In this document: positions 1-31,293 of the stretch, piece after piece
How positions within the stretch are numbered: the stretch's first letter is position 1
Layout of the letters: each line of letters opens with the position of its first letter
Program-made: the position numbers and the translations under genes
Notes under the pieces: model-generated
What the model saw: the letters and a program-made list of their open reading frames with translations, nothing else
The model's database searches: none
Told to the model about the DNA's origin: nothing
From: Tetrahymena thermophila SB210
Lineage: Eukaryota > Ciliophora > Oligohymenophorea > Hymenostomatida > Tetrahymenidae
Length of the DNA stretch: 64,000 nucleotides
NCBI RefSeq assembly: GCF_000189635.1
Contig: NW_002476507.1
Span: forward strand, 930,001-994,000
Direction: 5' to 3'

Positions 1-1770
1 TAAGCAAGAATCATATAAAAGAGCAGCAAAATCACCTGCTTTAATGAAAAATCTTTATAATTACTTAGATTAGCTATTTTAGTAAAATATTTAATTTATT
101 ATTAAAGTGTGAATAGTATCTAAAAAAATAATTGATTTATCAAATATAGAAACGAGTGTACTTTCATCTGCATAAATTACTTATTTACAAGTTCCTTAAT
201 CATAAATTAGCTATTATCCAATATATATTGGCTTATATATATTGGAAATATCCCACGTAGTAATTAAACCATTCACTGTACAAGTAGAAATCATACTTGT
301 ATTAGAATTTAAATCTATACTATTAATTTATTCTTGTGGATTTGTGTCACGCTTTTAAAAGTAGCTTAAAGAGTATTAGTCTTCTATAGATATTTTGTTT
401 GTTTAAATATTGTACTAGTATATTATTGTTTATACACTTTGTGAATATACCAAAATGTAAAGTTAGTATATTTCATTGTTTATTTAATTAATCTAAAGAT
501 TTAATATAGTTTATGGGTTTTGGATTGTACTTTGGGAAACATTTATAATTATAAAATTTTGTAATTATTCGTTAAAATTATATATATTAATATCATTATT
601 ACTGAATAAAATAGCCAATAATTGTAAATCTTTATTGATTTTGATGTTAATGAAATCTATTATTTCATTTTAATTATTCAGGATTTACAATTTTGTCAAA
701 TTGCTATCGAATAATATAAATTTTGTTTAGAATTAGATGGTGAGATAGTTTGTGATATTAACAGTAAAAACCTAAATATCAGTTGGTATTTCTTCTAAAG
801 CTAGAATAGAGCAATTTTATGATGATAATTGCACTAAATTTTTGGAAAGAGATGAAATTAGTAAGTATTAATCATCTTTCAATTAAATAACTTTTTTAAT
901 GTTTTGAATATTATTAACACAAATAAATTCTTTGCTAATTTGCTAAAGAAGGAGTGAAGAGCTCTCGAATACAACTTAATAAATTGAGATAACATTTCTG
1001 TTTATCTTAAACAAAATATCTTGAAAGAAATAAATTAATTAATCTGGGAGTAATTCTACACTTATCTATTCTTAAAAAATTAATTGATTATTAATTTTCT
1101 AAATTAATCTTAAAAAAACCTTTGTTTATTCCTTTTCATAATTGATTAAATAAGCAAATTAATTATTAACATCAATTAATTAAGTAGAAGAATCAAAAAT
1201 ACCAAATTATTAAGTTATGTTCTACATTTATTCTTCTAATAAAGAATATTATATGATCATGTTATTATTATTAAATTGCAGCAGATTCATGTTTAAATAA
1301 TAAGTAAAAATTGTGTCTTATTAAAATTATATAGAATAGAGCAAATTACCTTCTCTCATGTTGATAATACTCCCTTAACTTTAATAGATTACTAAAAAAG
1401 TACTGTTATCTATCACAACAATTTCTTTTATATTATTATTTGGTAGGATTCCTGTTGATAAATTGAACTATTAGGAGCAAGACAATATAGGCTCACAAGT
1501 ATTAGTTAAAGAGTTTGCTTAAAAGCCTTAATCACATATTGCTTAACAGAAATCTTGCTATGTAGAGATATAATCCTGTTTTTGCTAAAAAAATAACTTT
1601 TATTAGCAATTTTAGTATATACAAACATTGTTAAAACTATCTAACAAGTAGCTATCTTCACATTAAACACATATGCCTTATTAATCACATTATTTACAAC
1701 CTATTGAGCATAATTAAGCTTATTATACTGATATTTTAATTAGCCAAATCGCAATAAAAATTCTTTTCAT
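1..1770 (-). CDS. Giant surface membrane protein, tandem copy 1 (N-terminal part; runs off the left edge)
   Basis: This is one uninterrupted reading frame of 590 codons in the ciliate code, from the ATG at 1770 to base 1, with no TGA. It begins with a signal-peptide-like segment (MKRIFIAIWLIKI...) followed by a cysteine cluster, CSIGCKQCDQQGICVQC, at about residues 21-37, matching the same position in the three downstream paralogues. More cysteines follow (QDFCQAICDQG near residue 85), then a long region rich in beta-strand-like hydrophobic runs. Near residue 490-500 is a WD-type motif, NGLITTWDIS, also aligned in the other copies. The rest, which in the paralogues holds the beta-helix, cysteine module and membrane domain, lies outside the window. 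It is probably an intact gene rather than a remnant, because the frame is fully open. The function is unknown; a cell-surface location is inferred. Confidence 0.8.
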
Positions 1771-2162
1771 TTCAAATTGATGAATAAATTCTACTTTTGG
1801 TTTACTTCTTTATATTTTTTATAAGCTTAATAATCTTTTTTTATTAATATTGCTTCTATTTATTAACTTTATATTTAAGTTAATTTTTTTAATCATAACT
1901 TTAAAGCGAATTAAATTTACTTATTCAAATAAAAAAAATAATATTTAAATGAAAATTGCAAACAAATAATTATAAATATAAGAAATAAATTAAAAAAAAT
2001 AAGATAAACTAAAAATGAAAGCAATATACAGAAGTCAAATACAATAATTTTTGTATGAATAAAATAAATAGTATATATAAATTTTAGATTTTTTAATATA
2101 ATTATATTGTTTGTAATTAGGTATGATTTATACAGTACTATTTTCTATTCAAAATTAAATTA
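1771..2162. other. Intergenic spacer between tandem copies 1 and 2
   Basis: About 390 bases of very AT-rich DNA upstream of copy 1 and downstream of the copy 2 stop. It should hold the copy 1 promoter and the copy 2 3' end. I see no further reading frame or RNA gene. Confidence 0.6.
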
Positions 2163-5100
2163 TCAGTTTTTTTCAACTGGTGAATTTAAATTTTATCTTT
2201 GAGAAAATAGCTTGAATTGAGTTTCATAATTCTATTAAAAAATAGCATTTTGAGGAATAGAATTTAAATCCAAATCTTATAATCCATTAATGTACTCAGA
2301 AGATTTATCTAAATTTTCTTTTTCAAGCAAAATTTTTGTTTCTTTTTATTCTCCTGTATTCGATTTACTAGAGACAGATGAGTAAATTTCATTAGATTGA
2401 GCTTATTTATCATGGAAATTAGTATTCTCGTTTCTTGTTTCTGTCTGTTAAAATTCATAATTTGGCTTTATAGGATTTTCATTTTGTGAACTAAAAATAG
2501 ATTAATTTTATAAGTTTATAATTAAGCTTGCCTTTTGCTCAATAAAATTAGCTTAGAAGTTACGTATGCTTTATAGAAATACTGTTTAATCTTTTTAATA
2601 AATAATATTAAATAAAATAAAATAATAATTACTAATTACTTTATGTCTAGCTTAAATAATTGAATGTTGAGTTCTAATTGATCTATTCAAAAGCTTATTT
2701 TTTTATCAAGACTTAAATGTTTTTAAAAATATGCTTCCAATAAAGCAATGATTTTTTCTCTTTGTTTTAGCGGCTTTAAAGGTTTTAGCTTAAACTAGTA
2801 AAATGCAACTTTTAAAGTAAAGAAACTAAATTTTTTCTGAAAAAATTTTAAGGATTATTGAACTTGAAAATAATTATTTAAAATATTATTTTCATGATAA
2901 AGAGGAAATGAATTGTCCAAATTATAACTAAAAGAATTTGTGATTAGAGAGAAGAGTTTATGGTAGACAAAATTGTGTTGAATATGATCACCTAATAGCA
3001 AAAATTATCAAATTTTTGTAAATTCTTATTTACGATAGGAGAATAAAAGATTGCTTTTTTGATGTAAATATAGAGAATAAAAACACAAATCTGTTAATTT
3101 ATGAATGAATATTCTTTAAGCAAAGTAGAAAGAACCACAATCAATACTCTAATGTAAATCCTAATTATATCCCAATAATAGAATTCATTTTTGAATTCAG
3201 TGTAATAGTATCCAAATATGTATCTTGTCTTACAGTAGTCTAAAGTTTTTGATCTTTTTCTCAATTTAAAGAATATCAAAAGAGGAAGGAAACTCCAGAA
3301 CAACAAAAAGGGTATTGAAATTGTGTAAGCAAATTTCCTGTAAGCTGGATCACTGCAATCAATATGCATGTCAGAAGATACATAATATTTAGATCCTACT
3401 TTGGTACAAACGAGCTGATTTGAGAAAAAGCTAACTTAATTCGGTTAGAAAATTACAAATATTAGGTTAATAAGAGTAAATTTATGATACTGTTTGATGT
3501 CAAATTATTTCATAGATTGTAAAACGTTTGTTACAAATAAGCAAAAAATCAAATAAAGAAAAGGTAGTATCGATTGTAATATCTGAAGAGTTTGAATTCT
3601 CTCTATCTCGCTTTTAGAAAGTTAACTTACAAGACAACTAATACTAATCATGATTGAACTTGTTGGAGATCCAAAAAAGGAAGGTATTACAGAGAATACG
3701 TCAGGGAAAATAGAGTTTTGATAAGAAACTAAGATAGAAGATATCTGGGTGAAATTAATTAGAATTTTAAGGTAAAAGCTTGATTGGTCTTTTATTGAAT
3801 TGTTTAATATTGGAATAATCTTCATAATACGTAGATAGTAGCAAATTTAATGTTGCATAAAGCTATTCATGAATAAAATCATCTAAAGCTATAGGTAAAT
3901 CATAAAAGATAAAAAAAACAAGATCGTTATGGTAATTTATAGATACAAAAATAAGCATTCACTGCATTTTAATTCATTTTGGAGAGATTTTGAAAACTTT
4001 TTACCATACCAAGTATTCCCTAAATAATCACATTCTCTACAAACCGGACCTGTATATCCATAACCACAGTAATTTTTACTATTTGAATCTTACCCTTGAC
4101 ATGCATTAAAGATGCTGTTGCATTGTATTATTTCTGTAGATTATTCACTTTCTCGCCAATACCCATTTTTCAATTCAATTATGTCCCTTTAACAAAAGAA
4201 AGCCTCAAATGGGCAATTATTACATTATTAACTTGAAGTATTCGTAGAGTCAGTAGCATTTTATTGATAAGAAGGCTATACAGGGTCAGCTATTGAATAA
4301 AATCCAACAGGGCATTAAAAACAACTAAATATATTATTACTTATCTACTTTACTATTTCACCTCTCTAACATTTTCTCAAGTTTAATTTAACTAAAATTG
4401 GTTTATTTTTAACTTTTTAATATAGATTTAAAGTATAAGAAATTTAAATGTATTGCTGGGAGCTTGGCAAAGATGTTACCTAAACTTATTTAAATATATA
4501 TTTGTTGTTTTATCCAATAAACTATTAATGGGTTATAATATCTTAACCAGTAATTGAAATGAATGAAGACTGAGAAACCTTTTCTAGTTTAAATTTAATA
4601 CTAGTTATTTCCTATGAGATTGAAAGAGGGTAAAGGTCCTAGGTAAGTTTTTAAGGCGAATAAGTAAATTCTCTTTTCTCTAAATCAATTAAACTAAGCT
4701 ATAAAATAAAATATGAACCACTTCTAAAGTTATCAATAACAGCTACTCCATACCACAGTTCATTTTCAATATTTTTCAATTGGTCTTTGGTTCTGAAATC
4801 TTTTAAAGTGTTATTCCCTTATTCTTCTCCTAATTCGCTATGGTTTTAAGGTAAGCTTACTTATATATCTTGCAAAAATGTGGTAAAATTATTTCCATAT
4901 ATCTCGGCAGTGTTATTAATAAAGACAAATTTTATTTAATTCCAAAAGTTAAAACCAAATTTATCATTATTTTGGTTTATTATCCTTAAGCCTCCTCCAA
5001 TTAAAGCATTATTATCTCTAATAATTGTTGAAGAAACTTAAATACTAAAATTACCATAAAATTCTGAAATAAATATTGCTCCTCCACTGGCAAAGGCTCT

Positions 5101-8100
5101 ATTAGAAATAAAAGTGGTAGTTGAAATAGAAATTTTATTTAAGCAATTTTAAATTGAAAGAGCTCCTCCATCTTAGTTCTAGTTATTACTTAAAAAACTT
5201 TGACTAATTTCAAACTCAGAACATATACTCACTTAAATATTTCCTTAATTTGAAATGTAATTGATGTTTGTAAATGTTATGTATGAATTCCTAATAAAAA
5301 TTAATGGTGAGATTTTAGAATTTGAGAAGATGTTAGATGAAATTTTAAAATTTTTAAATATTATGGTATCAGATTCGAAGTTGACTTATTAATACTTAAG
5401 CAATTATGAATTTAATGAATATATTAGAGATAAATCTTTGCAGTTTAGCATTGAAATATTTTCAAAAGTAGTTGTCTAAACACCCGTTATCAAGAAAATA
5501 GATTAAAGGTTTAAAGAATAATTCGAGGACTATTTATATTAACAATTAATTATGTTAATATTTTCTATAAAAAGTTATTGAACATTATAGATATTTATAA
5601 ATTCTTCCATATAAGCGTTTTTGATTGTTAGGTTTTTTATGACTAGTATAGTTACATTATTCGCTGTCAGTAAGGATCTAAATTAAATTTTATTTGAGAA
5701 GTTATTATCTATTACAAAGTCATAAATATATATTTATTCTATATTCTAGAAATTTAAAAATGAGCCACTATTCTCTCCCTCTGATATACCCATGTAAGAA
5801 TTAAAAAAAGTATATCTTTTAAATACAACACTTGTTAAATTGAAGTATGAACAAATTATATTTGTAAGTTCTTAATTTTCAAAATAAAGATTTTCAAAGC
5901 TAATATTCTTCATTTATTCAGAATGATTCATAAAGGTATTATTTTAGAAAACTATTTAGAAGTCTCTTAGATAAACATCTTATTTTTTGTTATAAAATAA
6001 AGTAAAGTTATTAACATTCAATTAATTTATACTCTGATTATTCTCAATAGGCGTAGATATCTAGCTTGAATAAAAAACTACAGAACTGTTTTTGGTATTA
6101 GAATTGTCTAAAGGAAACATGTTTTAATTTGAAAATTTCACCATTAAATAATTATATGAAGATGAATTTGGATTTGCTAAAATATCTATTTAAGTTGAGC
6201 TTGGATATGTTTATGGCTTAACTTAACTTAACTCTTTAAAAAACTAATAATAACTCTATACTTAAAAACTAGCAAAGCAATATTTTTATTCACCATCAGA
6301 TTCCTCATAATCTAATGAATATCTTTTCTCAATGATTTGATTTTCTCCCAATATAATTGCAAATAAAATATTTGGGTTAAAATAATATTTTAATTAACTT
6401 TTAGAGCTTTGAACTTAGAAATTTACTATAATAGGATTGGTAACATTTACTTAATCAACTAGTTTTGGAGATTAGATATTAGTAAGTATAAAAAATTCAA
6501 CTCTTTATTAGCTAATTATGAGTAAATACTAATCTAGTATTAACTTCACTTCTGTTATAAAATATTGATTGTTTAATCTTCTAATGCTACTCAAATATTA
6601 AAGAGTTTGTCTATCGTAAATTAGCATGAAAGCAGATGAATATAAAATCAAAATATTATTACCCAATTATATCTTATTTTACTGCCTTTTAGTGAGCATA
6701 ATATATTTAAAACTTAAAGGATTTTAGTCATATTAGTACCTTCTTAATATTGTTTCAGATACAAAATTGAGATAGATTCTTGAAAATTTTTCGTCTACCT
6801 CAAACATTTAAATAGTAGAGTCCTATATTATTTAGTATTTCTGTATATCTTAAAATTTTAACATTTACCTTATGTTATAAGTTGTCTTGCTAATTTAGAA
6901 TACTCCTAAAGCACTTGAAAAGCATATAAAAAATTCGCTTTAAGTTTCTTTGATAAAAGAAATAGAAACAGAAGCAGTTTATTATTAATCAAATTAACTT
7001 AGTTTAAATATTTTTTCTTATTTTTCAATTAAATTATAAATCACTAAATCTCCGCTACTTAATCCAAGCAAAAGTAAATTTTTTGTGACAGAAAATAACT
7101 CACTGCTTATTCTCAAAGAAAATTGACCGAAAGAAAACTTGTAAAGTATCATTTATGTTGAAAAGTCATAATGCCATATTACAGAATCTTGAGTTAAAAA
7201 AATACCTTCACTTAAAAATCTAGTAAATTAACTAGTGCCTAATAGTATTTCTTACTTTTAAATTAATTTTTAAGAAATTTATTAAATACTGGTCTAATTT
7301 ATGTTTTTAAAAACTGTAATTTTATCTAAAAATGCAATAAGTAGAATTTATTATTATTGATTGTATTAGATTTGTATGGCTTCCTCATCAAAATTATAAA
7401 AGAAGTTCTATTGTGCTTATTAATACTTATATAAAATCCCTGATTATCCTAAAATTATATAAGTATTATTTTGCAAATCTTAGTTATTAAAGCTAATATC
7501 GGCAAATAAATACTAATTTGAATATTTTATTTATTTCATATAATCATTCAAATCTCCATAAGGTATGTAATAAACTGAAAGAGAATTATATATCAGCAAT
7601 GTATTTGTCCTTAAATCTAAAGAAAGTCCTTTTAAATTATTGAATTTCGGTTGCATAAAATCTGGTATTTTTAAAATGATTTTTGCTAAATAAAGTCCTG
7701 AGTAATTAATAGCCTAAAAATTTCCAAACTTATCTATCAATAAAATAAAATTTTGATCTCTATCATATAAAGCATCTACTAAAACAGTACAATCATTTTA
7801 TTATTATGCACAAGTATAGTACATTACTGTTTGAAAAGTATTTAAGTCATATGATGCAATTTATGAAAACCTTATGTTTGTTGTAAAAAATACCAGATGA
7901 TAATACTCTTTGATAAAAAAGAATTTTATTATCTTTCCACCTCCAACACTGAGTATCTATCCAATTTATTAGAAATTGCTTCTTTAGCATATTGTAGCAT
8001 CTATTTACAAAAAAATTTAATTAAAATAAAAAATTAAGAATAATATTATCATAAATGTAATAAAAAACATTAAACAATACATTTTAAATTAAATTTTCAT

Positions 8101-11100
8101 TTAATTTCAAGAAAAAAATATCACTGAATTTTTTTGACTTATTATTTTAACCAAAAGTTGTGGAAAAAAAATTTTGATTTATTTATGATAATTTAAAGAA
8201 TATCTGAAATATTATTTTTTAGTCTAATATGAATCAAAAATATAATTAAAGAAATTATTAATAACAATTATTTTAGAAATTAAATTATTACATCCTGGAT
8301 TTCTGTAAACAGTAATGTCTTCGAAAAATTGTATTTCTAAAATTAAACCATTAGGTTAAGTTACTTTTTAAACAAGATTACCATCTAATGTATATAATTC
8401 TATAGTAGAGGTGAATAAGTAAACATACTTGTATTCTTCATCTATAGCAAATAAATAACTAGAATCTAGATATTCAGAAGTTATAGTCTAGAGAATTTAT
8501 AAGCTACTCAAAGAATATATGTGGAACTCGGCGTTTTACATTTTGCAACCTAAAGTTGAGCCAGCTTTAATGCAAAATAAAGCTGCATTTGTTAAAATTG
8601 ACTAGTCTTTGTTTTAAGAGATTTTTAGATTTAAATTTAGTGCAATAATACTGCTCCCATATACATAAATTGTTTGATTGCTAACAACAAAGCCTTATAT
8701 AATTTGCTAACTATTAAACATAAAAACCTAATCATTCTAATAGTTTTTCAATAAAATATAATTTTTTTTAAGTGCAATTATTGAAGAATATTCATTCATT
8801 ATAATAAATTATTCTATTGAATTTAGAGATTTTTCTATTTCTAAAATTTCTATCATTTCATTTGTAAATAGATTAAATACAACTATATTTTATTTTATAA
8901 CAAAAAATAATCCTAATTCAAGACTCTGCTATACATCAATAATGTATTCTTATAAAATTTATTCTGCGTCACTGATACAGTAAATCTATTTGATCAAATT
9001 TTGTTTAATAAGGCTTAGAGCTAGTTTTCCAGTTTAATCTCCAGCTATCAAATAAGAATTATTTTATATTGCCTTATAATAACTAAATTATAAATCTTTA
9101 AATTATTAAATATCACCTACTACACTATTAGACATATTTATTCCCCATTAGAATGTTTCGATTTAACTATTTTGGCTACTATAAAAAATTAATTTTATTT
9201 CATAAAATGTTTAGTTGTTTTATACGTTAAAAATTTTAAATACTTTAAAAATACTTTGGCCTCCATTATTTTATATGCATATTTAAGAATTATTTTTAAC
9301 TTTCGAAATTGCATATACTATATTTTAGAAAGTAGTTATATTTTTAAAAGCTTAGCCAAGAATAAAATAAAATTCATCCTCAGGATTTTATTCAACAAAG
9401 TTAATATCGATAGGTAAATTTAGGAGTATATTTGCGATTGCTAGATTTACTTAAAGAAATTCATTCAAAATCAGAAATTCATAACTTGCATTAAAAATAA
9501 GTATTTCAAATAAAGCATTTTTTAAATAATTTTTAGGATAATTTCTTATTTTAACTTACCATATTAAATATTTACTATTGTAGATATTTATGTAATTTAG
9601 TTTAGGACTCTAAGACAAAATATCTAATTAGTAAGAAATAATTTAATACTACTTCTAAATAATTATAAAATATTCTTATGTAAATTCTACCAATTTTATT
9701 TATTCTTAAAAGTTTTATGAGCAATCTTTTGTTATTAGATTATTATTCTAATCAATAATAGTTAGGCAATAATCAAAAACGAAGACTGCATAATTGCTTT
9801 GGATAGCAATTAATTTATTAATCTATTTCTAATTGACGAAATTCCATTAATTTTCTATAAAATGAGTAATTACATTATACCTTATGATACAACTCTCAAA
9901 TAGTAATAATAAACTTACTTCAGTAAAGTAAATCATTTTTAAACAATTACCAATACCTTAAAATTGAATAGAATCAACTAATTTAACATTAAAATATTAG
10001 CTAGTATCCCATGTTTAAATTAAACCATTTATTGAACTAGCAGAAAGAAGTTGGTTATTATTAAATTATATGGAAACTATTTATTAAGTAAATTAGTTAT
10101 TTTTCCTTTAAAAAGAATTTAAAATCATTTAAAAACTTAGTTCTATTGTTTAATCGTCAATATTTATATTATAGACATAAATATCTTTAAAATAAGAGTA
10201 TATTTGAAATTAGTGAGTATCTAAATTGAGTTCTTCAGTGGAATTACTTATTTAAAGAATCATTAGATTTTAGGAGCTGTTGATTTGTTATTAATTAACT
10301 AGTTCGATCTAGCTAGATAAATTACTTTAATATTATGCAAAAGAGTAGAAAGCTAAAGTAGAGTTATCGTATAAAGTCGCTATAAAAGTATTATTCAATC
10401 TTTAAAATGTTAATAATTCCAATAGTTGAACCTCTTGCTATAAATCTATTTAAGCTTTTAATCCTAAAAAGTTATCTAAAATTAATATCTTAGTTTTTAG
10501 CCCAAGAAAAATGTTATAATAATTATTTTATTAATCAAGGATTAATTATTATGGGTAACTATCCAAATTAAGTGAATCACAATCAGTTTGATTAATTTTG
10601 ATAAGATATTAAACTGAATTAGAAATTATAAAGTAATAATTAGTATTGGAAAATTGAGAAAAATCTTAAATTTAAATAGATGAGAATTAGCTGCATATAA
10701 AATCATTTGTGTAGTTTTGCATTTTTATAACAGAGTCATTTTCTTAAATTTAAATTATTTTAATTCCTTTTGAACTTGTTATAATTATATTTGAATTAAA
10801 AACAAATATCAATTCTTATTCACTAAATTTAATTTAGGAAAATTCATTATTAGTTTCAAACGAAGAGTTTTAAATATTGAAAATTTTTTTTATTATTAAA
10901 GTATTAGTGTCTTATCTAGATTTAGTTATTAAGTAAACCTTATTATTAAGTAGAAGTAACTAAGTAAATTTATCAAATTTTCCTACTGTTTCAATATAGC
11001 TCAAAATGGTATCACTTTATAACTGCAGTACTTAAATTGATTGATTATTATTGAACAAGAAAAAGTTATCTTCTAAAAAAAAAGCAAGCAGCGTGTTATC

Positions 11101-11550
11101 ATAAAACTAAATACTTTTTAAAAGTTATCCATCAGATAAAGAAATTAAGTTTATCTTATCTTCATAGTAAACTAAGGCACTGTTTAAATTATACTGAGTT
11201 ATTTTCAATATTTATTTCTACGAATCGATAGCATCAAGTGTGATTAAAGACTTTGAGCAAGGATATATTTATTAACATATATTTAGATTGTCATTAATCC
11301 AATATCCTTCATCACAAATAGACTAACATGATGATTAAGAGTAGCTAATTAGTGGATATTTTACTTACCAATATAAATTTTAATCGCACAGTTAATATAC
11401 ACATTAACCTAAACTTTAATCTAGTTCAAAATTTGGAGCGCACTATAGACAGGAGTCAAGCTAGTTGCAAATTTCGCATCCTATCTAGCATAATTAAGAG
11501 ACTACAAATTATTATGATATAAAAATAAATAATAGATTGCTTATTTTCAT
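2163..11550 (-). CDS. Giant surface membrane protein, tandem copy 2 (complete)
   Basis: The start is the ATG at 11550 (signal peptide MKISNLLFIFIS...) and the stop is TGA at 2165-2163, giving roughly 3,000 residues. The N-terminal cluster is CQIGCEICNQLDSCLQC. A propeller-like region follows with the WD-type motif NGLIQTWDTS, interrupted by an intron at 8291-8001 (GTAATA...AAATAG, 291 nt). Around plus-strand 5,000-6,200 is a beta-helix region with PMP-type motifs such as FISNRAFASGGAIFI. Near 4,000-4,300 is the module NGYWRESE...C...CGYGYTGPVCRECD. Then come several hydrophobic segments, including YWDIIRIYIRVLIVVLSTLL near 3,150, and a polar cytoplasmic tail after an intron near 2,650-2,600. 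The tail ends with QNYETQFKLFSQRQ and is shared in part with copy 4. Location at the plasma membrane with a large ectodomain is inferred; the ligand is unknown. Confidence 0.82.
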
Positions 11551-12064: not shown

Positions 12065-15000
12065 TCAATTAATCCCTGAGCTGGATTAAAACTATTAAAA
12101 TGAATCATAATTTTTCTTTCTATTAAATCTTGCATCGTAAACCTCATCAACTATTTTTTTTTATCCATAATTTGAGAAAATTTCTGATTTAAAATTTAAT
12201 TCATCTGAATTTACTCCTTACTATAAAATCATTTCCTCTAAATTTTAACCAATCCTATCCTTTTTTGGTATATCTATCAGTTCAAGATATTTCTGAAAAG
12301 GGGTTTCACTTTACTCTCTTTCTAATTTGATAATACCTTTTGATAATAAAAATTAATTATATTAATTTTATAGAAATAGTTACCTGGAGTTAGGTCTTTG
12401 AATTTAGATAGCTCATAAAGGGTAGAACGTTTAGATGATTATTTATTGATATTAGATAGCTTTGTTTTGATAATATCACTTTTTGTCTTTATTAATGGAT
12501 CTAAATCTTTTAAAATATAATTAAAATTATTTGTATATTAGCTATAAAAATATAAATTACCTATATTGACTTAGTTAGAGTTTGGCTAGCATTTTTATTA
12601 AGTAACTTTTTCAATAGCTTGTAAAGAAACTATTAGACTTAAATTCTTTTGTAACCTTTTCCAACGAGTCAATACTTACCAATTTGAACTGTAGATTTTT
12701 ATATATTTATTATAAATACTACGTGGGAGGATTTTGTATAGGAACTTATTAAAAAACCTTCCAACAAAAGTAAAAGGATTGTTTAATTTAAAAAAGATAA
12801 TAATTAAAATGGTCATAAATATGACTATAAAATGCAAAGAGTAAATGATTCCAGATATAATACCAGATTTTATATCGATATTTATTATCGATAGCAGTGA
12901 ATTCAAAATAATCATCTTGTTACAAAAAAGGTCAAATCTTTGTAAATTATTATTTCTTATTGGATTAAAGTACAATGTGAATTTAATATAAAAGAAGAGT
13001 AAGAAAATCACAATTTAGTAGCTAATAAATTATGATTAAGAGGTCAGAGTAAAAGCAACAATAATAATAACTCTTAAGTAAATTCTAATGAATTCCCAGT
13101 AATAAAACTTTTCTTTAAATTCTTGATAATAGTATCCAAAGTAATATAGAGTAATACACTTTTAGAGATTATTCTATCTTTTTTATAAGCGCTTAAATAT
13201 TATAAACGGAAATAAACTCCAAGTTATAATTAAAGGTATAGACAATGGTAATATGAATGAATTATACTTAAAATTATTACATTTTATCATATAATCGGAA
13301 GTAACATATAGCTCAGATCCAATTAGAGTACAAGTTAGTTATTTACAAAAGAAATTAATTTAATCAGGCTGAAAGAAAACAAAAACAATATTCATTAGAG
13401 TAAATTTATGATACCTTTAAATTCCGAATAATTTTAGCTTTTCTAAAGAAAAAATTATTATAAATAATACCAACAAAATGGCTACCAACAAAGATACTTA
13501 TATGACTTATGTAATACTAGCTTAACTGAATTGTCTAATATAATCTGAACTTATTAAGCAACTAATATTAACTGAAATTTTACTGATAGGATCACCCAAA
13601 TAATCTGAAAAAGAAAGAAGTAAATCTGGTAAAAAGCTAAACTAAAAAGTCACCAGTGTAGAAGATATTTTAACATAATTAACTAATATTTTCATATAGA
13701 CACTTGATTTATCTTTGATAGAGTTACTTGAAATTGAAATCAAATTTATTTTTCTTAAGTAGTAGCAGATGCAAGAATTGACAAATGAATTATAAAAAAT
13801 TTGCATGCTGAAAATGAAATAAAATAATAAAAGTAAAATTGCTAGGATTATAGTAAATACCAAATATTTTATGTCACTACATAATTAGCATTTTGATTAG
13901 CCAAGATGAGATTAAGAAAAACGTTAACCTTTCCATAATTATCCTCCTAGATCACACATTTTACAAATAGGTCCCATATAACCACTAAGACAACCATTTT
14001 TACTTGTTTAATCTTATTCATCACATGCATTAAATAATATTGGACATTCAACAATATCTGTAGAGGTACTATTATTCCTCCAATAACCTTTTTTTAAAAT
14101 AATTGTACTTTTTTAGCAAATTATAGCTGAATCTGGACACTTTTTGCACTCAGATTGATACACTTGTGGTTAAGTATTCAATGTGTTAGTTTCAGTCTTT
14201 GATATCTTTTCAGACCAAAGTTAATCTTTGGTAGGATCTGTTATTGAATAAGACCCTAAAGGACAAGGATAACAACTGTAAATATTATTTTCTAGCTATC
14301 TGACAACTTCTCCAGGGTAACATATTCTCATATGAATTTCTATATAAATTGGAAGCACGTTAATATTTGCTGGTATGTAGTATGGTATAATTTGTAAACT
14401 TGCTGTTTAGTTTGGCATACTTGAAATTTAAATTTATGTAAATATAAATTAATTATTTTAATCATAAAAATCAGAGGAAGTTATAATATTATGACCATTT
14501 ATAAATAAATCCTAATTTTGTGTGTAAGATTATATTTTGAATTATATTTATCTCAGTTCATCCATAATTGGATCAGGATATTATTAAGAATAATATTTTT
14601 ATACTTCAATCTTCAAATATGTTCCTTCAGCATCAATCAATTGAATAGATAGATTAATAGTACCACCACTTTAAAATTTGAAAATTTATAGAATTTATTA
14701 AAATTTTTATTAATCAGATTTATTCATTTCTTCATTCTTGATTATTTTGTAATCTATTTTTTATTGATCTGATTAATTCATATCAGAAGTTTAAGCAGAA
14801 ATATCTTATATCACTCCTATAGTTGCGTTTTATAAAAAAGTTCCTACATTTTTTCCATATAACTATGCACTGTTATCAAAAATTAAATTTTTATAGTTAA
14901 AATTTAGAGATTAAAGTAAATTTAGTTTATTGTTTAAAAGTCTTATTCCTCCACCTATCAAAGCTTAATTTTTATTTATTTAAACTAAACTATCCATTTA

Positions 15001-18000: not shown

Positions 18001-21000
18001 AATTAGTTTTGTATTAATTTACTTGTAGATGTTACAGAGATATCATTAGTAAATACTTATAATGCACTGATTTATGTATTAATCTAAGAAATATACATCT
18101 AAAAATTACCATTAAAGCTGTATACTTCAATATTAGATGAATAAAGAATAATTCTCTGATAAAGGTTATCTATTTAAAACCTATAATTGTTATCTAAGAA
18201 ACGCTACTACAAAGTGGTTATGGGATTCAGGTTATTTTTGTCAAAAATTGTAATTATTGATGATGCTTTTTTACAAATCAATCCAATTTAGCTTAAAATA
18301 CAATTTTAAACTAAGCTTTTATCTGAAGACTATTTTAAAGAATATTTTTCAGTCAAATCAAAATCTAAAATAGAAATGCTAGATCCAAATAAATAGATGT
18401 TGTTGTTATCTATTAAATAATTAGTAATTTAAAGAAAATTAGTATAATAATATACTTAGTTTTTTTAATAATTTTTTGCAAATAATATATTTTGTTTAAT
18501 ACAAATAATTATATTCTACTAATCTAATATTGAAAACTATTAAATTGGTTAACTAGGATTTTACTTTACTTCTAAGATTTCTATTAATTCGTTCGTTAAT
18601 ATTTTAAATACATAAATATTTGATTTTATTATAAAATACTTTTAAAGTATCAAGCTTTAATACACTCCTTAAATAAAATCATTTTATAATATTTCAGAAG
18701 GACTTAGATTATATACTTTTGTATAAATTTATTTTCTTGTTGCATCAACAGTCATCAAACCATTTTAATCACCAACCATGTAAAATTGATCTTTTTTAAA
18801 AAGCTTAAAATTATTAGTTAATACATTTTAAGATAAATAATTTGATCCAAAAAAATTATCTAAGCTTTACATATTATAGTAAAACGTTTATATTGCAGTT
18901 TTTTAATTCATTAATAAAACAGTTTTGAAATTGTACCCAAGTGAGCCATTTTCTTTGTTTAAATCTTTCTATACAGGAAAAAAATAATTAAAGGCACGTT
19001 ATTAAATAACTTAAAAGATATTTGTATAGTTCTTAAATAAGGCATATGCTTAATATTTATAATCAGCAGAACTTTAGCTAGTAATCCCTCCTATTATATA
19101 AAGATTATCATCTGGATCACTATTCATAAAAGATATATCTATTGCAGTAGAAAGTAGGATATTATAATATGATTTTATAGGCTTTAAATCCTAAGAAAAT
19201 ATAATAAAGGATTAATCAGAAAAATATGATACTATTTCGAATATAATATTGTTTGCTTATTAATAGCTTTATGGAAAATTTCTTATTTTCCAAATTTATA
19301 TTTAAGCCATACTTAAATATGTTACTTTTTGATTCAATTGGTTGTTTAGTACCTAGAAAATTGTAAAAGAATAAGCCTTTTACACAACCAAATTCATACT
19401 TGGGTCAAGTTTTGCTTGAACAATAGTATCATCGAAAAATGAGCTACAATCTTAGAAGAGAAGCTAAAAGTTTTAGTCAAATGCTTTAAAGCAAGAATCG
19501 TATAAGAGATATGAAATTCCATTAACTGGCAATATAAATTAATTTGTCATTTTAGATTATTGATTGACAAAATTCCAAGTGTTCAAAATTCTAGAATAAA
19601 CTGCATCAAAAGCTATTATACTTGTTTAAAATAGAATTAGAACATAATTATTTACTAAATATTGAATAGATTTGCATAATCCTTGATTGTTTATGAAAGT
19701 TGAATCCAAAAGCTAAGGTTTCGATAAAATAGAGTAATCCCAAGTCATTATCTGCCCATTTGTTGAACAGTATGTAACTATATTGTTTGCATCATTAATA
19801 TCTACAGAAGCCACGCTAGACTACATTTCATTAATTTTTCTTTAAATTGGCTTTAAAAAATACTAATTTGTAAGAATTAATTAGTTACTGTTAGTTATGT
19901 TTAGAGATATTGATTATAAATATTTAGAATAAGCAATTATTTACACTTGTTTTAGTTAATTGCTATTATCTATTATTTAGCTAATAAGTACTAAATTTGT
20001 TGGATTGAATGTATTCAATTTAAACTAATTCAATTACTGTTATTTGAAATTTTATAAATCTAAACTTAAAAAATTCAAATTTGATGAACTATCAAGAACA
20101 GCTAAAATAATGTTTGAGTTAAAAGCTGAAATGGTAAGAAAATCAACAATATCTAGTTAATTTTATATTTAGGAAACTTAAGATAAGTGATCATTCAAAA
20201 TAAGGATCATATTTTAAAGTTGCAAAAAGTAAAAATTCAATGGTGAAGAAGAAAATATTTTAATTTAAGAGCAAGGTTATGGAATTTAAAATACTTAGCA
20301 GGAGGATTAATCTAATATTAAATAATTATTATTATCATTTATTATTACTAAAAATTATTAGTTATCTAACTTCAGCGCTTGCTTAAAATTGATATCTTTT
20401 AAATTTGAGCATTAGTAATAGCCATTAGAATAATTTGAAGTGATTAAATTATTTTTGTTATTAATTAAAAGTTATTGAATACAAATACCTTATGGGGAGG
20501 CCAATAAAACAAAATCATTTAAAAAGTAGTAACTTTTATTATTTTATAAATCGAACCAAATAGTTGGTGGTTTCAAAACAAAGCTTTTTTGATTAAGATC
20601 TAACATTAAAGTGGCATAAGTTTTTTTCTTTTTACTGTCTTAAGTAATAATAAGGCCATAGTTTCCCTTCACAGAAATGATTTTAATTTCTTAATCGATA
20701 TTACCTTATAAAGCCCAATCAAATAATTCAGTTATGTTTTGCTAAAGATTCCATCTTACAACTTTCTTATCATTCTAAAATAAGTAAAAATTATCATTAT
20801 AATATTACACATATTAAATGTTTTGTTAGAAAGGAATGCTTTACACAAACATACCAGTTGATTTAAGCTGTATATTAATATATTAGGAGTATAATAAAAT
20901 AAAGTATTATTCTTAGTAGGATAACACCAAGTTTATATTTTCGCTTTGCTAACTAATACCTGTGAGAGAGCTATATGTTAGGGAGCATTTGTTTAAATTC

Positions 21001-21272
21001 ATGCATAACTTAGTATGGTTATCTCCTAAGTAACCTTAATCGCAGATTGATTAACAAACTCCTGATTTATAATTACTTTTCTCCTAAAAGTATAAATATT
21101 ATTCGCAATCCTTAAAAATGCAAACTCCTAATTCTTAATCTAATTAAAAATCTTGTTCACACTAAATACAAAAATTCTAATTGTTGCATTAATTGCAACC
21201 TTATGGACAGGCTAAAGATTGTTTAAATAGCTGCGTTGCTGCTATAATTATAAAGAAATAAAGCAATATCAT
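12065..21272 (-). CDS. Giant surface membrane protein, tandem copy 3 (complete)
   Basis: The ATG at 21272 opens a signal peptide (MILLYFFIIIAATQLF...) followed by CPQGCNQCNNQNFCIQC. The order of parts matches copy 2: propeller-like region, intron at 18022-17937 (86 nt, same place as in copies 2 and 4), a second propeller-like stretch, beta-helix region with GGAI motifs (about 14,900-15,500), the GYTGP-type cysteine module near 13,950-14,300, and a multi-pass membrane domain (13,900-12,600). Two small introns near the end, 12560-12507 and 12383-12337, separate tail exons. The tail differs from copies 2 and 4: it reads LSKGIIKLEREQSETPFQKY... and ends at TGA 12067-12065, without the QNYETQFK motif. 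The body is closest to copy 4. About 3,000 residues; function unknown. Confidence 0.82.
16312..16944. repeat. Near-identical tract in copy 3, matching 26361-26993 in copy 4
   Basis: The two segments align without gaps at a constant offset of 10,049 bases. By eye I count roughly 18 mismatches over 633 bases, with only one in the last ~190. Flanking sequence on both sides is clearly more diverged and gapped. The tract lies in the ectodomain coding region. Confidence 0.75.
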
Positions 21273-22082: not shown

Positions 22083-25000
22083 TCAAATTTTATTTTTATT
22101 ATCAGATTTTCTATTAAAATCAAGATTTTTTTTCACTTTAAACTGGGTTTCATAATTTTAATCTAAAGTCTTATTTTACACATTACTTTGATATAATTCT
22201 GATTAGAAGTTTATTTCATCTACTTGTTCGGCTTGCTAAGAGTAATCATCATTCAAAAATTAATCATTATAATCACTTTTGTTTCCATTTATTAGCTAAA
22301 TCTCATTATTTTTACTGTTTTCACTCTAATTTTTTGCTAATTATATAAAATCTATTTCTGATAAAATTATATTATTTTTATGTTTTGATAAATAAAATAT
22401 ATTTAATTAATTAATTAATTACCTTCTGTTTAATCTTTACATTTCGAGTGCTCTTGAATGTAAGAACGCTGAACTTGATTAATAAGAGATATTTTTTATA
22501 TTACGTTGCTTTTCAAGTTCATCACAGTATCAAATGCTTTTATTAAGAAATAAGATAAAATTATATTTTATTAATGAATTAATTTTTAATTACTCTAGTT
22601 GAGTTAATTTTATTTAAGCTAAGATTTTTCCTATGTGACTTTTTCTATGGCTTGTAATTACACAATTAGATTTAAATTTTTTTGTATTTTCTTCCAAAGA
22701 GTGTATATTTTCCAATTAGTAATCTAAGATTTTAAATATTTACTATAGATAGATCTTGGGAGGATTACTGAGAGAATCTTTCTAAAACATTTACCAACAT
22801 AAGTTAAAGGATTATTTAACTTAATAAAAATAATTGCTAATACAATCATAAATATAAATACTAGATGAAGACAGTATATTATTCCTGATATTGCATATGA
22901 TTTTATTTCTGTATTTATTGTGGATAACAAAGAATTTAATATAATAACTTAGTAGCAAAAGAGGTCGAATCTCTATAAATTATTACTTCTTATTGGGTTA
23001 AAATATAGTGTAAACATAATATATAAAAAAAGTATGAAAATCACAATTTAGTAGCTAATAAAGTAAGATTAAGAGGTGAGAGTAAATGCAACAACAACAA
23101 TAACTCTTAAATAGATTCTTATGAATTCCCAGTAATAGTACTTTTCTTTAAATTCTTAATAGTAGTATCCAAAGTAATATAGGGTAAAACAGGTTTAAAG
23201 TACTTTCGATTTTTTTTACAAAAGCTTAAATATTATAAATGGAAACAAACTCCAAATTAATATTAAAGGTATAGCCAAAGGATATGTAAATGAATTATAG
23301 TCTGGATCATTACATTTAATTGTCAAATCAGAAGTTACGTACTTTTCAGATCCAAATTGGGTACATGTTAATTATTTAGAAAAGAAATTAATTTAATCAG
23401 GTTGAAAGAAAATAAAGATAAAGTTCATGAGAGTAAACTTGTGATACTTTTTAATTCCAAAAATCTTTAACTTTTCTAATATGAAAACTATTCCAAGTAA
23501 GACTATTAAAAATAGCAGTGGTAAAAAGGCTTAAAACACTTATATAACGTGAGCTTATCCAAATTATTTGATAAAGCTCAAACTAACTACACAATTTATG
23601 CTTACTATCACTTAGGAGTTAGGATCTCCAATATAATTTGGTAAAGAAGATAGCAAATCAGGTAAAAAGCTAACCTACATAGATACTAAAACAGAAGATA
23701 TTTAGATATAATTAATTAATATTTTTAAGTAAAAGCTTGATTAGTCTAGAATCGCATGCCTCGATATTGGTAGCATTTTTATTTTTCTTAAGTAGTAGCA
23801 TAGGCATGAATGAACAAAAGAGTTAAAAAAAAGGATCATACTTAATATGAAATAGCACAGCAAAATAGCAACTGCTAGCAAGATAAAAAATATTTAGTAG
23901 TTTATATCATTGCATAACTCACATTTCAACTAATTTATAAAAGACTATGAGAAACGTTAACCATCCCATATCTAACCACTAACATCACATGCTCTGCAAA
24001 CAGGTCCCATATAACCTTTAAGACAACCTTATTTGCTTGAACTGTTTTAATCATCACAAGCGTTAAATAATGTAGAGCATTAAATAATATCAGTAGATGT
24101 ATTATTCTTCCTCCAGTAACCAGTTTTTAAAATTAATGTGTTATTTTAACACACAAAAGCTGAATCTGGACACTTTTAGCATTCAGATTAGTAAACATTT
24201 GATTATAAACTCTAATTTGTCATACTAAAAGGGGTATTTGATATTTATTCAAACCAAAACTCATCCTTAGTAGGATCTGTAATGGAATAAGAACCATAAG
24301 GACAAGAATAACAACTATAAATATTATTTTCTAACTGTTTTACAACTTCTCCAGGGTAACATATTCTCATATGGATTTCTATGTAGATTGGAAGAACATT
24401 GATATTTGCTGAAATGTAGCTTGGAATAATTTATAAGCTAGTTGTCTAGTTTGGCATACTAGAAATCTGAATTTAAGTAAATACAAACTGGTTATTTAAA
24501 TCATCAAAATCAGAAGAAGTTATAATATTATGCCCATTAATTAATATATCTTAGCTAAGTACATAAGATTATATTTTAAATTAAATCTATTTTAATTCGC
24601 TCATTATAGAATTAGGGTATTACTGTAAATTATATTTTTATATTGAAAATTTCAAGTATGTTCCTTCTGAGTCAACCATTTTAACACAAAAGCTTATCAT
24701 ACCACCACTCTAAAATTTAAAAATTTATAGAATTTATTAAAACTTTTCTTAATCAGACTTTTTCATATCTTCATTCTATATTATATTGTAATTTATTTTT
24801 AATTAATCTGATTGTAAATTATCTGAAGTCTTTGAAGAACTGTCTTATATTACACCTACAGTTGCATTTTATAGGAAGGTTCCTACATTTTTTCCATACA
24901 GTTATGCATCATTATCAAAAATGATGTTTTTGTAGTTAAAATTCAGAGATTAAAGCAGATTAAGCTCAGTATTTAAAAGTCTTAATCCTCCACCAATCAA

Positions 25001-28000
25001 GGCTTAATTTTTATTTATTTAAACTAAACTATCCATTTATATTTATGCATCTATATTTTCTAAATAAATAGCTCCTCCACTTGCATAAGCTTCGTTATAT
25101 TAAAATTTACTATTTTTTATTTTTATTATACTTGAGCATTATATTAAAGAAAGGGCTCCTCCATTTAGGCATAAATTATTTTAGAAAACACTATTTTCAA
25201 TCAATAAGCTTTTAGATAATGTTATGAATACATTTCCTTAATTATATTAGTAAGTAAAGTTATTAAATATACAAAAAGAGCTTTAAACAGATATTAAAGA
25301 TTAACTTTTGGAGTAAGATATTTAATTTAATACACTATATAGGCTATCAATCTTTAATATGTCAGTCTATTAAATATACTAGATTCCATCATCTTGAAAT
25401 ATGTTAGAAGTGTAAATGAACAGTAAGTTATAGTTATGAGAAATATTTATATTTGAAAGAGTAGTATTAGTCACTCCAGTAATATTTAAAACATATTCAT
25501 TTAAATTATTAGAAGCATTAGTACAATTTATTATTGAGAGATTATTTATTGAAAGATTTTCAACTTATTAAATTCTAATTAAAGGATAAATATTTGAATT
25601 TTTAATTGTTAAATTTTTAATTACCAAATATTTAGCATTTATGGCTGAAATTAAACCTATAAAGCTAAGATTCTGTAAATTACTGTTATCTAAAACTAAA
25701 TTGTAAATGTTTACATATTCTACATTTTCAAAAGAAAAGAAGTAATTTTACTTTTGAAAATTTGGATTAAATTACCTTTATAAATTCTTTAGATATATTT
25801 AATCAAAAACTATTTTGCTCATGTTAAAAAATTGAAAGGTAATATTGTCTGTTACTTATGATTCTATTTAAATGTTATTAAAAGTAATGTTTAACGAATT
25901 TTCATAAAAATTTATTGATTCTAATTATTTTTAAAAGATGAAGCGAAAATCTCTTATCTATACTTCTTACTTTTTATATGAAGTAAATGTGTCAGAATAA
26001 ATTTAAAGTGGATAAAGATCTTAGTTATTTGATACTAAAGACGTTTAAACAGGGTAAACTTGAGTTAAACTATTCAGTGTACTTTAAAAATTAATAGCCC
26101 TAATATCATTTCCATTTAATAAAATATTCCAGTAATTATTTAAACTATAATCTGATACTGGAATCATAGATCTTTAAGAAGGATCTGGAAATGATACAGG
26201 CTTAATCTTACTCATAGAAAATGAAACATCATAAAATGAACTTACAGAAACATCCATGCTACAAATCTTATCTTTTGTTTAGATACTCTCATAAATAAGA
26301 TTGTATTTCTGCTCGAGTACTTGGTTAGATGATAATAAAAATATTTACATTATTGAATTAATATTTTAATTACTATTATCATTATTATTGATAGCATATG
26401 ACATGAATGTAGGATTTTGTAGTAAAACTTGGTCCATTAAAACAGCTTCTTTTGAGTTTTACTTTAATTAAAATATTTCATACTTACTTTAGCTTAAAAT
26501 AACTAAATATTTGCTATTAATTTCAACAACTTCTACTATAATATCGTTATGATTATCCCTCCTTATTCTTTAAATGTATTATAGAGTTATTCTATCATAG
26601 ATCATAACATGAAAGGTAGTATAAACTAGTAAATGGGATGAACTAATTTATAAAGTATTATAATATATACCTGCTAAAGATATAATTTAGAGCAAGTTTC
26701 CTGATAAGTCAAACACTCGCAATACTTTTTCTCCAATAAAATTCAAAAAAAATCTACTATTTTATTCATCCACATCGAAGATCATAACATTTAGCTCTTA
26801 AATTGTCTTGTAAGTATTTAAGCTATTAAATTAAATTATTTATATAAAGCTCTGGTCCTTAAGATTAATTTTGAAAATTCCCTGTGTACTACTGAAGCAA
26901 GCCCATAAATCTGTCGAAGTTTCTGCCAAGTATGCTATTTCTAAACCAAAGTATTGCTATCCTTACTATTTAGAGACTAAGCTAATAATATATTTTTGAT
27001 AAGTGCTTCTGTTGTAAATTATTATATCTCCATTACTTAAACCCAAATAAACATTTTGCGAGATAGAAGAACAAATATTTTTGATTATTCTGGATTGAGG
27101 ATCTTATAATTTTATGGTACTTATATACTTTTAATTTAAAAAATCATAATGGTTAATTAATCCATCTTTAGTTACAAACACGTCTTCACATATGAATAAA
27201 GAAAATAGGCTATTTAAAGCAACAATTTATTGTTAATTTTACCATGGATTCAAATTTGCCAAAGAGTTTTGATCAAAATTATTAAAAATAACAAAAGACT
27301 GAGAAAGTGCTATGATTAGTAGTTTCAGGTTTGAAATGTAATTAATACTTTGAATTTCTTCATTGAGTTGATAAAAATACTCAAATGCAGTATTTTAATA
27401 TTTATAAAGCAATCCTTAATCTCCAGCGATAATAAAAGCAATACTTGTTTGATCTGAGCTACCTAAAGTAGTATCTGATATCTAGGCAAACAATTATTTC
27501 TTGCTTGTTCTTAATCTTATAACTTAATTAGTTAAATCACCATAACAAAGATTGAAAACTTAAGTTTATGAGTAAACAAATAAGTTATTGTTTTGAAAAT
27601 CTAAAGAAAATCCTACAATGTTATATGCTGAATATTAATCATATTCAACAAATTTTGTTGTTGTCCATGTAACAAACTAAGCTTGATAATCTATAGTTTA
27701 AAAACTTCCTGCTAAATCTAAAACAATGAATAGATTTTAATCTTTATCATATGAATAGCTTGCAATAACTGATGGTTAATTCTATGTAAATGTATTTTTG
27801 TACTGCATAACTGTTTATAAATTATCTAAACTAATAGTGAAAATTTAAGCAAATCTTATAACAGCTAGATAAAATACTAATTAATTTAGTTCAGGTATAA
27901 ATCCTGTATTTAAAATAGTACCTCCTCCTGGACTGATAATTTATCCTCTATAATTTAAAGTTTTTCTGTCATAAATAATAATACCTATTTTATAAAATTG

Positions 28001-31000
28001 AAAAATAAATATATTAAGTTAATTTTAATTTATTTACTTGTTGATGTTACAGAGATGTCATTAGTAAATATCTATAATGTACTGATTTATGTATTAATCG
28101 ATGAGATATACATTTAAAAATTACCATTAAAGCTATATACTTCGATGTTAGACGAGTAGAGAATAATCCTCTGATATAAGTTATCTATTTCAAATCTATA
28201 ATTGTTATCTAAGAAGCGCTACTACAAAGTGGTTATGGGATTGAGGTTATTTTTATCAAAAATTATGATTGTTGCTGATTATTTTTTACAAATCAATCCA
28301 ATAGAACTAAATGCACATTGCTACACTAGGCTATTATCTAAGGTATTCTTTTAAGAATATTTTTCAGTTAAATCTAAACCTAGTATAGAAACATTAGATC
28401 CGTATAAATAGATGTTGTTACTATCTACTAAATAATTAGTAATTTAAGAAAAGTTGGTATAATAGTATACTTTATTAATTTTATAGTCCTTCACAAATAA
28501 TATATTTTGTTTTATACAAATAACAATATTATACTAATCTAATATTGAAAAATATTTAATTGGTTAGCTAGGATCATTCTTAACTTCTAAGATTTCTATA
28601 AATTCATTTGTGAGTAGTTTGTAGACTTAAATATTTGATTTTATTATAAAGAATTTTTAAAGCACTAAACTTTAATAAACTCCTAAAATAAAATCTTTTG
28701 ATTGAATATCTTAAGGGCTTAAATTATAAACATTAGAGTATACTTTTCTCCTCGTACCATCTATAGTCATCAAACCATATTGATCTCCAAACATGTAAAA
28801 TTAATCTTTTTTTATTGTTTGGAAAACATTCATATATACATATTAGTTTAAATAATTAGTACTATAAAAGTTATCTTAGTTTTACATATTATAGTAAAAC
28901 GATTAAACCACAGTTAAATAACTCAAATCAACTACTGCCTTAAACGTATATGCTACAGCTCCATTACCTTAGTTAATATATTTATATACAGAAAAAAGTT
29001 TATTTAAACCACTTTACTAAGTTACTGAAAAAATGGTTGTTTAATTCTTAAACAAAGCAAATGATTGATATTTAAATGATGCTGACTTTTGGCTATTAAC
29101 TCCTCCTACTACATAAAGATTATCGTATGGATCATCAGACACAAAATTAATGTCAATCGCAGTTGAAATAAGAATATTTTAATATGATTTTATTGGTTAT
29201 AAATCTTAAGAAAATATAGTAAGGGATTAATCAGAAAAGTATGAAATAATTTCAAAGGTAATATTGTTCTCATCTTGATAGCTTTATGGAAAATTTCTTA
29301 TCTTCCAAATTTATATTTAAGCTATGCTTACATAGGCGCCTGATAGATTCAATTTATTGTTTAGCACCTTGAAAACTGAAAAAGAATAGGCCTTTTACAC
29401 AACTAAATACATACTAGGGTCTAGTTTTGCTTGAATAATAACATCATCTAAAATTGGGTTACAATCTTAGAAAATCTGCTAAAAGTTTTAATCAAATGCT
29501 TAAAAGCAAGAATCGTATAAGAGATATGAAATTCCATTAACAGGTAATATATATCTATTTGTCATTTTAGATTATGCATTATTGAAAGTCCAAGTATTCA
29601 AAATTTTAGAATGAACTGCATCATAAGCTATAATACTATTAGAAAATAGTATTAAAGCATAATTATTAATTAAATACTAAATAGATATGCACAATCCTTG
29701 GTTATTAATGATAGTTGAATCCACAAGCTTAGGTTTTATTATTATAGAATAATCCCATGTCATTATCTACCCATTTGTTGAACAAAAAGTAACTAGATTA
29801 TTTACTTCGTTTGTATCTAGAGAAGTTATACTAGATTACATATCTGTAAGTTTTCTTTAAAACGGCTTTAAAAAGTACTAGCTTGTTAAAGAAAGAGAGT
29901 TTTAATTATTTCTGTTTAGTGTTATAGATTATAATTATTTAGAATAAGCAATAATTTGCATTTGCTCAAGTTAATTATTGTTATCTATAATTTAGTTAAT
30001 AAGCATTAAACTGGTTGGATTAAATTAATTCAATTTATATTAATCTAATTATTAGTATTGCAAATTCTATAAATCTAAGCTGAAGAAATTCAAAATTGAT
30101 AAATCATCAAGAACAGCTAAAATCATATTTAAGTTAGAAGTTGAAATAGTAAGAAAATCAACTATATTCGCTTAAATTTGAATGCGCGCAAATTAAGTTA
30201 AATCTGTATTTAAGCCAAGTACGATTGTTTAAAGTTGTAAAAAGTACATATTTGATGTTGAAGTAGAAGCGATCTTAACTTTGGAGCATGGTTATGGAAT
30301 TTGAAATATTTTGCAAGAATTTTAATCTAAAATTAAATACTAAGGTTAGGTATTCAATATTATCATATTTTATTTATCATTTAAGTTCAATACCTTTAAA
30401 ATGCTTATAGAATTTAATTCTTTGCAATAATTTTAATTTGATTAATTTTGAGTGTTTAAATTATTATTCTAATCTATGTAGAATTATGAAACATTAATTC
30501 CGTTAGATTAGTTAGATGTGGTAATTAAAATTAGATCATTAAAAAAATAATAATCCTAATTATTTAATTAATTTATTTTAATAGTTGAAGAATATTACAC
30601 AAAACTTTATTAAGTCAAATCTAACAACAAAGTTGCATAGATTATTGATTTTTTCTTGTCAAAAGTGATAACAATTCCAAATTAATAATTGAGAGAAATA
30701 ATTTGTGTACTTTAATCTATATTACCTGATAAAGCAAACTTGAATAGTTCTGTACTATTGTTCTAAATGTTCCATTTTACTACTTTGTTGTCATTTTAAA
30801 ATATGTAGAAATTATCTTGGAAGTATTCTACATACTCTAAATTCTGCTAAAAAGGAATATTTTGCACAAATCTCCCTGTTGATTTAAGCTATTTGCTGAT
30901 ATATGTTGAATAGACTATGATAAAATATTAATCTTAGTAAGGCAAAACCAGTTTAATGGTTTCGCTTACCTAGCTAATACCGGTCTGAGAGCTGTATGTT

Positions 31001-31293
31001 AATGAACACTAGCTAAGATTAATGCATAAATTTGTTTTACTATCACCTTGATATCCTTAATCGCAAATAGCTTGACAAACTGCTGGTTACTAGTTACCTT
31101 TATTTTATAAGTATAAGTATGATTCACAACCTGTGAAAATGCAAACTCCTAATTCTTAATCTAATTCAAAATTTTGCTCGCACTATTAGCAAATATTTTA
31201 TTCGTTGCAATTAGTACAACCTGTTGGACACGCAAATAAGCTTTTAAAAAGCTACAAAGCAACTAATGCTACAAAAAATTAATATGCTTTCAT
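22083..31293 (-). CDS. Giant surface membrane protein, tandem copy 4 (complete)
   Basis: The ATG at 31293 opens a signal peptide (MKAYQFFVALVALQLF...) and CPTGCTNCNEQNICQQC, then a propeller-like region with the WD-type motif NGQIMTWDYS. A 53-nt intron at 28037-27985 sits exactly where copies 2 and 3 have theirs; the downstream exon resumes with IYDRKTLNYRGQI. The beta-helix region, GYTGP-type cysteine module (near 24,000-24,300) and membrane domain (about 23,900-22,650) follow. Two small AT-rich introns near 22,600-22,540 and 22,430-22,365 precede the tail, which ends QNYETQFKVKKNLDFNRKSD and stops at TGA 22085-22083. The body is most like copy 3, while the tail motif is shared with copy 2. 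About 3,000 residues. It is the most upstream member of the array and is divergent from the UBR gene. Confidence 0.82.
26361..26993. repeat. Near-identical tract in copy 4, matching 16312-16944 in copy 3
   Basis: Partner of the copy 3 tract. It starts at the shared AATATTTTAATTACTATTATC-like stretch and ends where the copies diverge just after GAGACTAAGCTAATAATATA. Confidence 0.75.

Follow-up and report, generated by a model that had tools for sequence, protein, structure and literature searches.

A four-gene array of giant multi-pass surface proteins in Tetrahymena thermophila is part of a family of at least 73 genes with a possible role in recognition or sensing

The best comparison for the proteins described here comes from Tetrahymena thermophila itself, where MRC2, which combines a pectin-lyase fold with eight transmembrane (TM) helices, co-purifies with the mating-type proteins and where, in the excerpts used of PMC10901506, the components of the mating-type recognition complex are all 92-212 kDa. 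The same excerpts describe MTA, MTB and MRC1 as proteins with five TM helices and a growth-factor-receptor cysteine-rich domain. A survey of ciliate G-protein-coupled receptors (GPCRs) was made with known GPCR seeds and seven-transmembrane (7TM) signatures with three to eight TM helices, and in the parts of it used here none of family C is reported (PMC9960496). Here we describe four co-oriented genes, c1-c4, on the minus strand of a window of 64,000 nt from T. thermophila SB210 (contig NW_002476507.1, positions 930,001 to 994,000; C65:930001-994000, C-numbers being contigs of the genome searched, 101.02 Mb in 445 contigs). We take this genome to be macronuclear DNA of T. thermophila; one of its telomerase exon stretches aligns to PDB chain 6d6v_A (T. 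thermophila telomerase) without a single difference in the exon cores, all mismatches being at introns that are read through. By description MRC2 appears to be the closest studied protein; a search with MRC2 terms gave no match in the vesicle paper PMC12029339.

The array is read here as four members of a family of giant multi-pass surface proteins, most likely receptors for recognition or sensing, a role that we infer and to which we give about an even chance. The window has a GC (guanine plus cytosine) content of 18-28%, and no open reading frame (ORF) of at least 150 aa is listed in it under table 11, while the ciliate code, with which all four copies were read, gives very long reading frames. 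The four co-oriented copies of the initial annotation stand, but c1 is a 5' fragment in the window, running from position 1770 past base 1 and ~7.4 kb further beyond it, and the family of which the array is only a part has 73 or more genes. The proteins are ~345-348 kDa with 28-41 N-x-S/T sites per copy, and each gene consists of two long exons separated by a phase-1 GT..AG intron (just beyond the window in c1), the site and phase of which are shared by C308, C186, C17b and C167b. Among ten paralogues the splice sites of this intron were found in eight and inferred in two (C17a and C167a), in which the alignment shows a read-through insert exactly at the intron site, a multiple of three nt long (3n) and without TGA. 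A second, less certain intron is likely within the tail of each gene, the putative acceptor in c3 being weak. Under the ciliate code the genes at C17:237960-247802 and C167:586283-595834 look like single ORFs of more than 3,000 codons; that they are intronless was rejected, since they appear so because the intron, apparently 3n long and free of TGA, is read through. Such introns are a pitfall for ORF-based annotation.

When analysing the ectodomain, the proposed signal peptide and C-x3-C-x2-C cluster were both recovered, as a hydrophobic N-terminus and as C-x3-C-x2-C-x5-C-x2-C, in all four copies. No direct WD match was found in the exon 1 region of the array copies, and WD repeats are detectable in the equivalent part of the family members C10 and C389. 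The propeller suggested earlier was borne out in exon 2, where the predicted model of c4 is a circular fold of four-stranded blades, a true beta-propeller. An internal duplication relating the propeller regions of exon 1 and exon 2 was not established (hhalign probability 6.5%), and neither a profile search of PDB with exon 1 nor phmmer against PDB with exon 2 of c4 gave anything useful. As for the PMP-style repeats, the predicted beta-helix that follows and the GGA[ILF] motif support them, the motif being found once in c1 and twice each in c2, c3 and c4 against 0.00-0.02 expected from shuffles, but F..N.A taken by itself occurs in c3 and c4 at close to the chance rate (1 observed, ~0.5 expected). 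The Chlam_PMP family (PF02415) matches eight of 12 family members (best E 2.4e-4), with c4 scoring 12.4 bits, under the Pfam cut-off of 20.6.

Between the ectodomain and the membrane lies a cysteine-rich domain with weak Pfam matches, to NCD3G in four and to Ephrin_rec_like in three of 24 members, followed by the motif GYxGPxCxxCD, present in all four copies although the letters GYTGP, as originally noted, occur exactly only in c2. The AlphaFold2 model predicts a multi-pass membrane domain, with nine helices compared with the 5-7 per copy of a crude hydropathy scan, and 12 of the 29 columns invariant across 24 members fall in the membrane module. The fold of these helices was not established: of the 86 Foldseek matches with E <= 10 not one reached E <= 0.001, and the VIA rows that fall on the helices belong to a kind rated as common by the tool. 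No 7TM family is among the Pfam matches of the 24 modules at E <= 1, and PDB profile searches with the TM module and with the cysteine-rich domain, as well as an ncbifam search, gave nothing useful. The tail, described initially as variable, is indeed where c3 and c4 have diverged most, but its end motif is conserved in c2, c3 and c4, though not in c1, and a NYETQFK-like motif was found in nine of ten clade members.

A genome-wide search with a 597-aa query gave 76 matches at E <= 0.001, which merge into 73 genes spread over 37 contigs, a minimum because just 73 of the 686 first-look candidates were scored. That the array is a self-contained set of four genes was rejected in view of this family, which in this genome also contradicts a single-copy housekeeping orthologue. 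Co-oriented arrays, 16 in number with a spacing of 9.5-17 kb, hold 48 of the genes, the other 25 being single, and no TGA occurs in the modules of the 24 members read. When exon 1 and the exon 2 ectodomain served as single-sequence queries, 44 of the 73 genes had a match where one is expected upstream (34 for the exon 2 part, 30 for exon 1, 20 for both); in the remaining 29 the upstream part is either absent or too divergent for the query. Among divergent members, C389 has the Cys cluster, propeller-like region, beta-helix and membrane module, and C60 and C10 have all but the Cys cluster, which was not seen in the stretch examined. The C10 gene (C10:762968-769518, minus strand) has the longest branch of the tree, stands outside the arrays, is split into more exons and contains WD40 repeats that are easily recognised; its form is possibly closer to that of the ancestor. 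A relic of a family gene (C17:248366-250285, minus strand), matching c4 residues 726-1306 and carrying an in-frame TGA, lies between two full copies of 86% identity and points to birth and death inside an array. Several family genes lie a few kb from contig ends or on short contigs (for example C74:13, C45:147, C136:3676, C335:7544 and C345:6940), by inspection as if the family were more frequent towards the ends of chromosomes or at breaks in the assembly.

In a tree of 30 rows the array forms a clade with C308, C186, two C17 and two C167 genes (support 100/99). The possibility that the array is one recent tandem expansion was rejected, as within this clade c1 branches off first and then c2, before the group of c3, c4, C308, C186, C17 and C167. 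The pair c3/c4 shows an overall non-synonymous divergence (dN) of 0.177 and synonymous divergence (dS) of 0.648, with dS dropping to 0.07-0.24 in six 75-codon windows over c4 residues ~1204-1653. The lowest 150-codon window has a dS of 0.085, a value reached in 0 of 2000 codon-order shuffles (lowest shuffled 0.191), and by module the propeller (residues 1246-1651) has a dS of 0.156, compared with 0.768 for exon 1, 0.602 for the beta-helix and 1.077 for the membrane part. This is the trace expected of gene conversion of the propeller unit and supports such an event between c3 and c4. The C167 pair has one low-dS stretch too (0/2000 shuffles) and c4/C308 has a low window (5/2000) with ordinary variance (304/2000), while the C17 pair shows no dS heterogeneity (333 and 1163 of 2000 shuffles) and c3/C308, c4/C186 and c3/C186 are ordinary in the shuffle test. 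The ectodomain exchange of the initial annotation is supported for c3/c4, in the low-dS tract, but is not general among the pairs compared.

The overall dN/dS is 0.27 for c3/c4, 0.26 for C17, 0.23 for C167 and 0.19 for c4/C308, with 0.10-0.38 in the ectodomain parts and 0.15-0.25 in the membrane part. The tail is the highest module in three of the four pairs (0.39-0.73), values that outside c3/c4 are rough, the tail introns having been left in. No module in the four pairs, and no 75-codon window in the three pairs analysed by windows, exceeds 1.

A role in recognition or sensing, as proposed at the outset, fits the receptor-like topology (signal peptide, predicted ectodomain of ~2,400 residues, cysteine-rich domain, multi-pass domain and tail) and also the tandem amplification and the segmental exchange between two neighbours. 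Ligand binding and signalling by these proteins are putative, and the paralogue pairs compared give no hint of diversifying selection: overall dN/dS is 0.19-0.27 in the four, and no 75-codon window exceeds 1 in the three analysed by windows. If the role is correct, propeller and beta-helix would bind an external partner such as prey, another cell or a glycoconjugate of a matrix, the cysteine-rich domain would relay the change in the ectodomain to the helices, possibly working as a coupler as it does in class C GPCRs, and the tail motif, usually a NYETxFK-type end, would recruit a cytoplasmic partner. New specificities could then arise by tandem duplication, dispersal and swapping of ectodomain units such as the c3/c4 propeller. 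A bolder version appears doubtful to us: a non-GPCR ciliate receptor superfamily, including MRC2, with propeller and beta-helix, a coupler of the calcium-sensing receptor type and a new nine-helix domain, and with at least 73 genes that swap whole propellers between tandem copies.

The many N-x-S/T sites of the giant ectodomain, the many paralogues and the purifying selection would suit a surface coat or adhesion function without signalling, in which the ectodomain forms a glycoprotein layer or holds on to a surface and the helices are a mere anchor. An anchor needs neither a membrane module so rich in invariant columns nor a conserved motif at the end of the tail, however, and we consider this explanation unlikely. 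Somewhat less probable still is a function specific to mating, with the array members as relatives of MRC2 and accessory subunits of the mating-type recognition complexes of starved cells; the pectin-lyase fold and eight TM helices of MRC2 (excerpts of PMC10901506) are the same two kinds of module, but the complex components given there are far smaller than the ~345 kDa found here and 73 genes are hardly needed for one complex. That the membrane domain is a TRP-like ion channel gated by the ectodomain, for instance mechano- or chemosensory, is the most improbable of these explanations: there is a match to Pfam TRP (PF06011) in one of the 24 members, with E 0.0094, but this match is single, gappy and below the cut-off (15.2 against 28.5 bits), and no channel structure stands out among the structure matches of the helices.

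Table 1. Coordinates in the window of the array genes and of features discussed in the text (pLDDT, predicted local distance difference test; pTM, predicted template modelling score).
Feature	Position	Strand	Remark
c1	1..1770	-	first 590 codons; 2993 aa in full
c2	2163..11550	-	3012 aa, complete gene model
c2 introns	8291..8001 and 2639..2582	-	second less sure
c3	12065..21272	-	2990 aa, complete gene model
c3 introns	18022..17937 and 12560..12412	-	second unsure
Exchange tract, c3 side	16234..17583	-	approximate; coordinates transferred from c4
c4	22083..31293	-	3010 aa, complete gene model predicted from homology only
c4 introns	28037..27985 and 22593..22469	-	second less sure
c4 N-terminal 11-cysteine cluster, residues 22-96	31006..31230	-	11 Cys invariant in 8 aligned paralogues
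c4 exon 1 propeller-like region, residues 97-1085	28039..31005	-	
Exchange tract, c4 side, residues 1204-1653	26282..27631	-	low synonymous divergence
c4 modelled beta-propeller, residues 1246-1651	26288..27505	-	
c4 right-handed beta-helix with PMP-type repeats, residues 1751-2110	24911..25990	-	model pLDDT mostly >80
c4 calcium-sensing-receptor-like cysteine-rich domain, residues 2290-2372	24125..24373	-	
c4 GYMGPVCRACD motif	23984..24016	-	
c4 membrane domain, nine predicted helices of >=18 residues	22814..23905	-	AlphaFold2, mean pLDDT 76.8, pTM 0.70
c4 C-terminal cytoplasmic motif NYETQFK	22137..22157	-	

Beside the array, on the plus strand, lie an ORF with a UBR-box zinc finger (31891-32982; PF02207, E 1e-10), just past c4, and an open frame of 1735 codons (33240-38447) for which no match was found in Pfam (E <= 0.01) or, with phmmer, in PDB (E <= 0.001). 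Further on, an ORF with Tesmin/TSO1 CXC domains is located at 53388-55475 (plus strand; PF03638, E 2.2e-23).

The types of module described here are already known, while their combination and the size of the family were not found in the open-licence literature searched. If these proteins are receptors, the surface of T. thermophila would carry 73 or more giant proteins that are not among the GPCRs catalogued in the parts used of PMC9960496, and the family may have escaped that survey because known seeds and 7TM signatures (3-8 TM) were used. Recognition of prey, surfaces or mates by a single cell could then be studied through a defined set of genes, and in a species whose genes are routinely knocked out and tagged (as described in excerpts of PMC10901506 and PMC3226668). 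The family would also suggest that a cysteine-rich coupler of the class C type is compatible with binding and membrane domains of quite other kinds.

Compared by description only, MRC2 and the array proteins are both large membrane proteins of T. thermophila, the former with pectin-lyase-fold and about eight-helix domains and the latter with a predicted beta-helix and nine modelled helices, but ~345-348 kDa lies outside the 92-212 kDa range of the complex components and the excerpts of PMC10901506 mention no propeller for MRC2. MTA, MTB and MRC1 are likewise large membrane proteins with an extracellular cysteine-rich domain, differing in having five TM helices compared with about nine modelled, a mismatch that rests on the model (hydropathy 5-7), and neither propeller nor beta-helix is mentioned for them in the same excerpts. 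With class C GPCRs such as the calcium-sensing receptor the array proteins may share a juxtamembrane cysteine-rich domain of similar predicted structure, placed between ectodomain and helices. The ectodomain of class C GPCRs is a Venus flytrap, whereas the array proteins have a propeller and a beta-helix, and about nine modelled helices instead of seven. The beta-helix repeats of the GGA[IL] and FxxNxA type resemble those of the Chlamydia PMPs (PF02415); these have an autotransporter barrel, in place of which the array proteins carry a helical multi-pass membrane domain.
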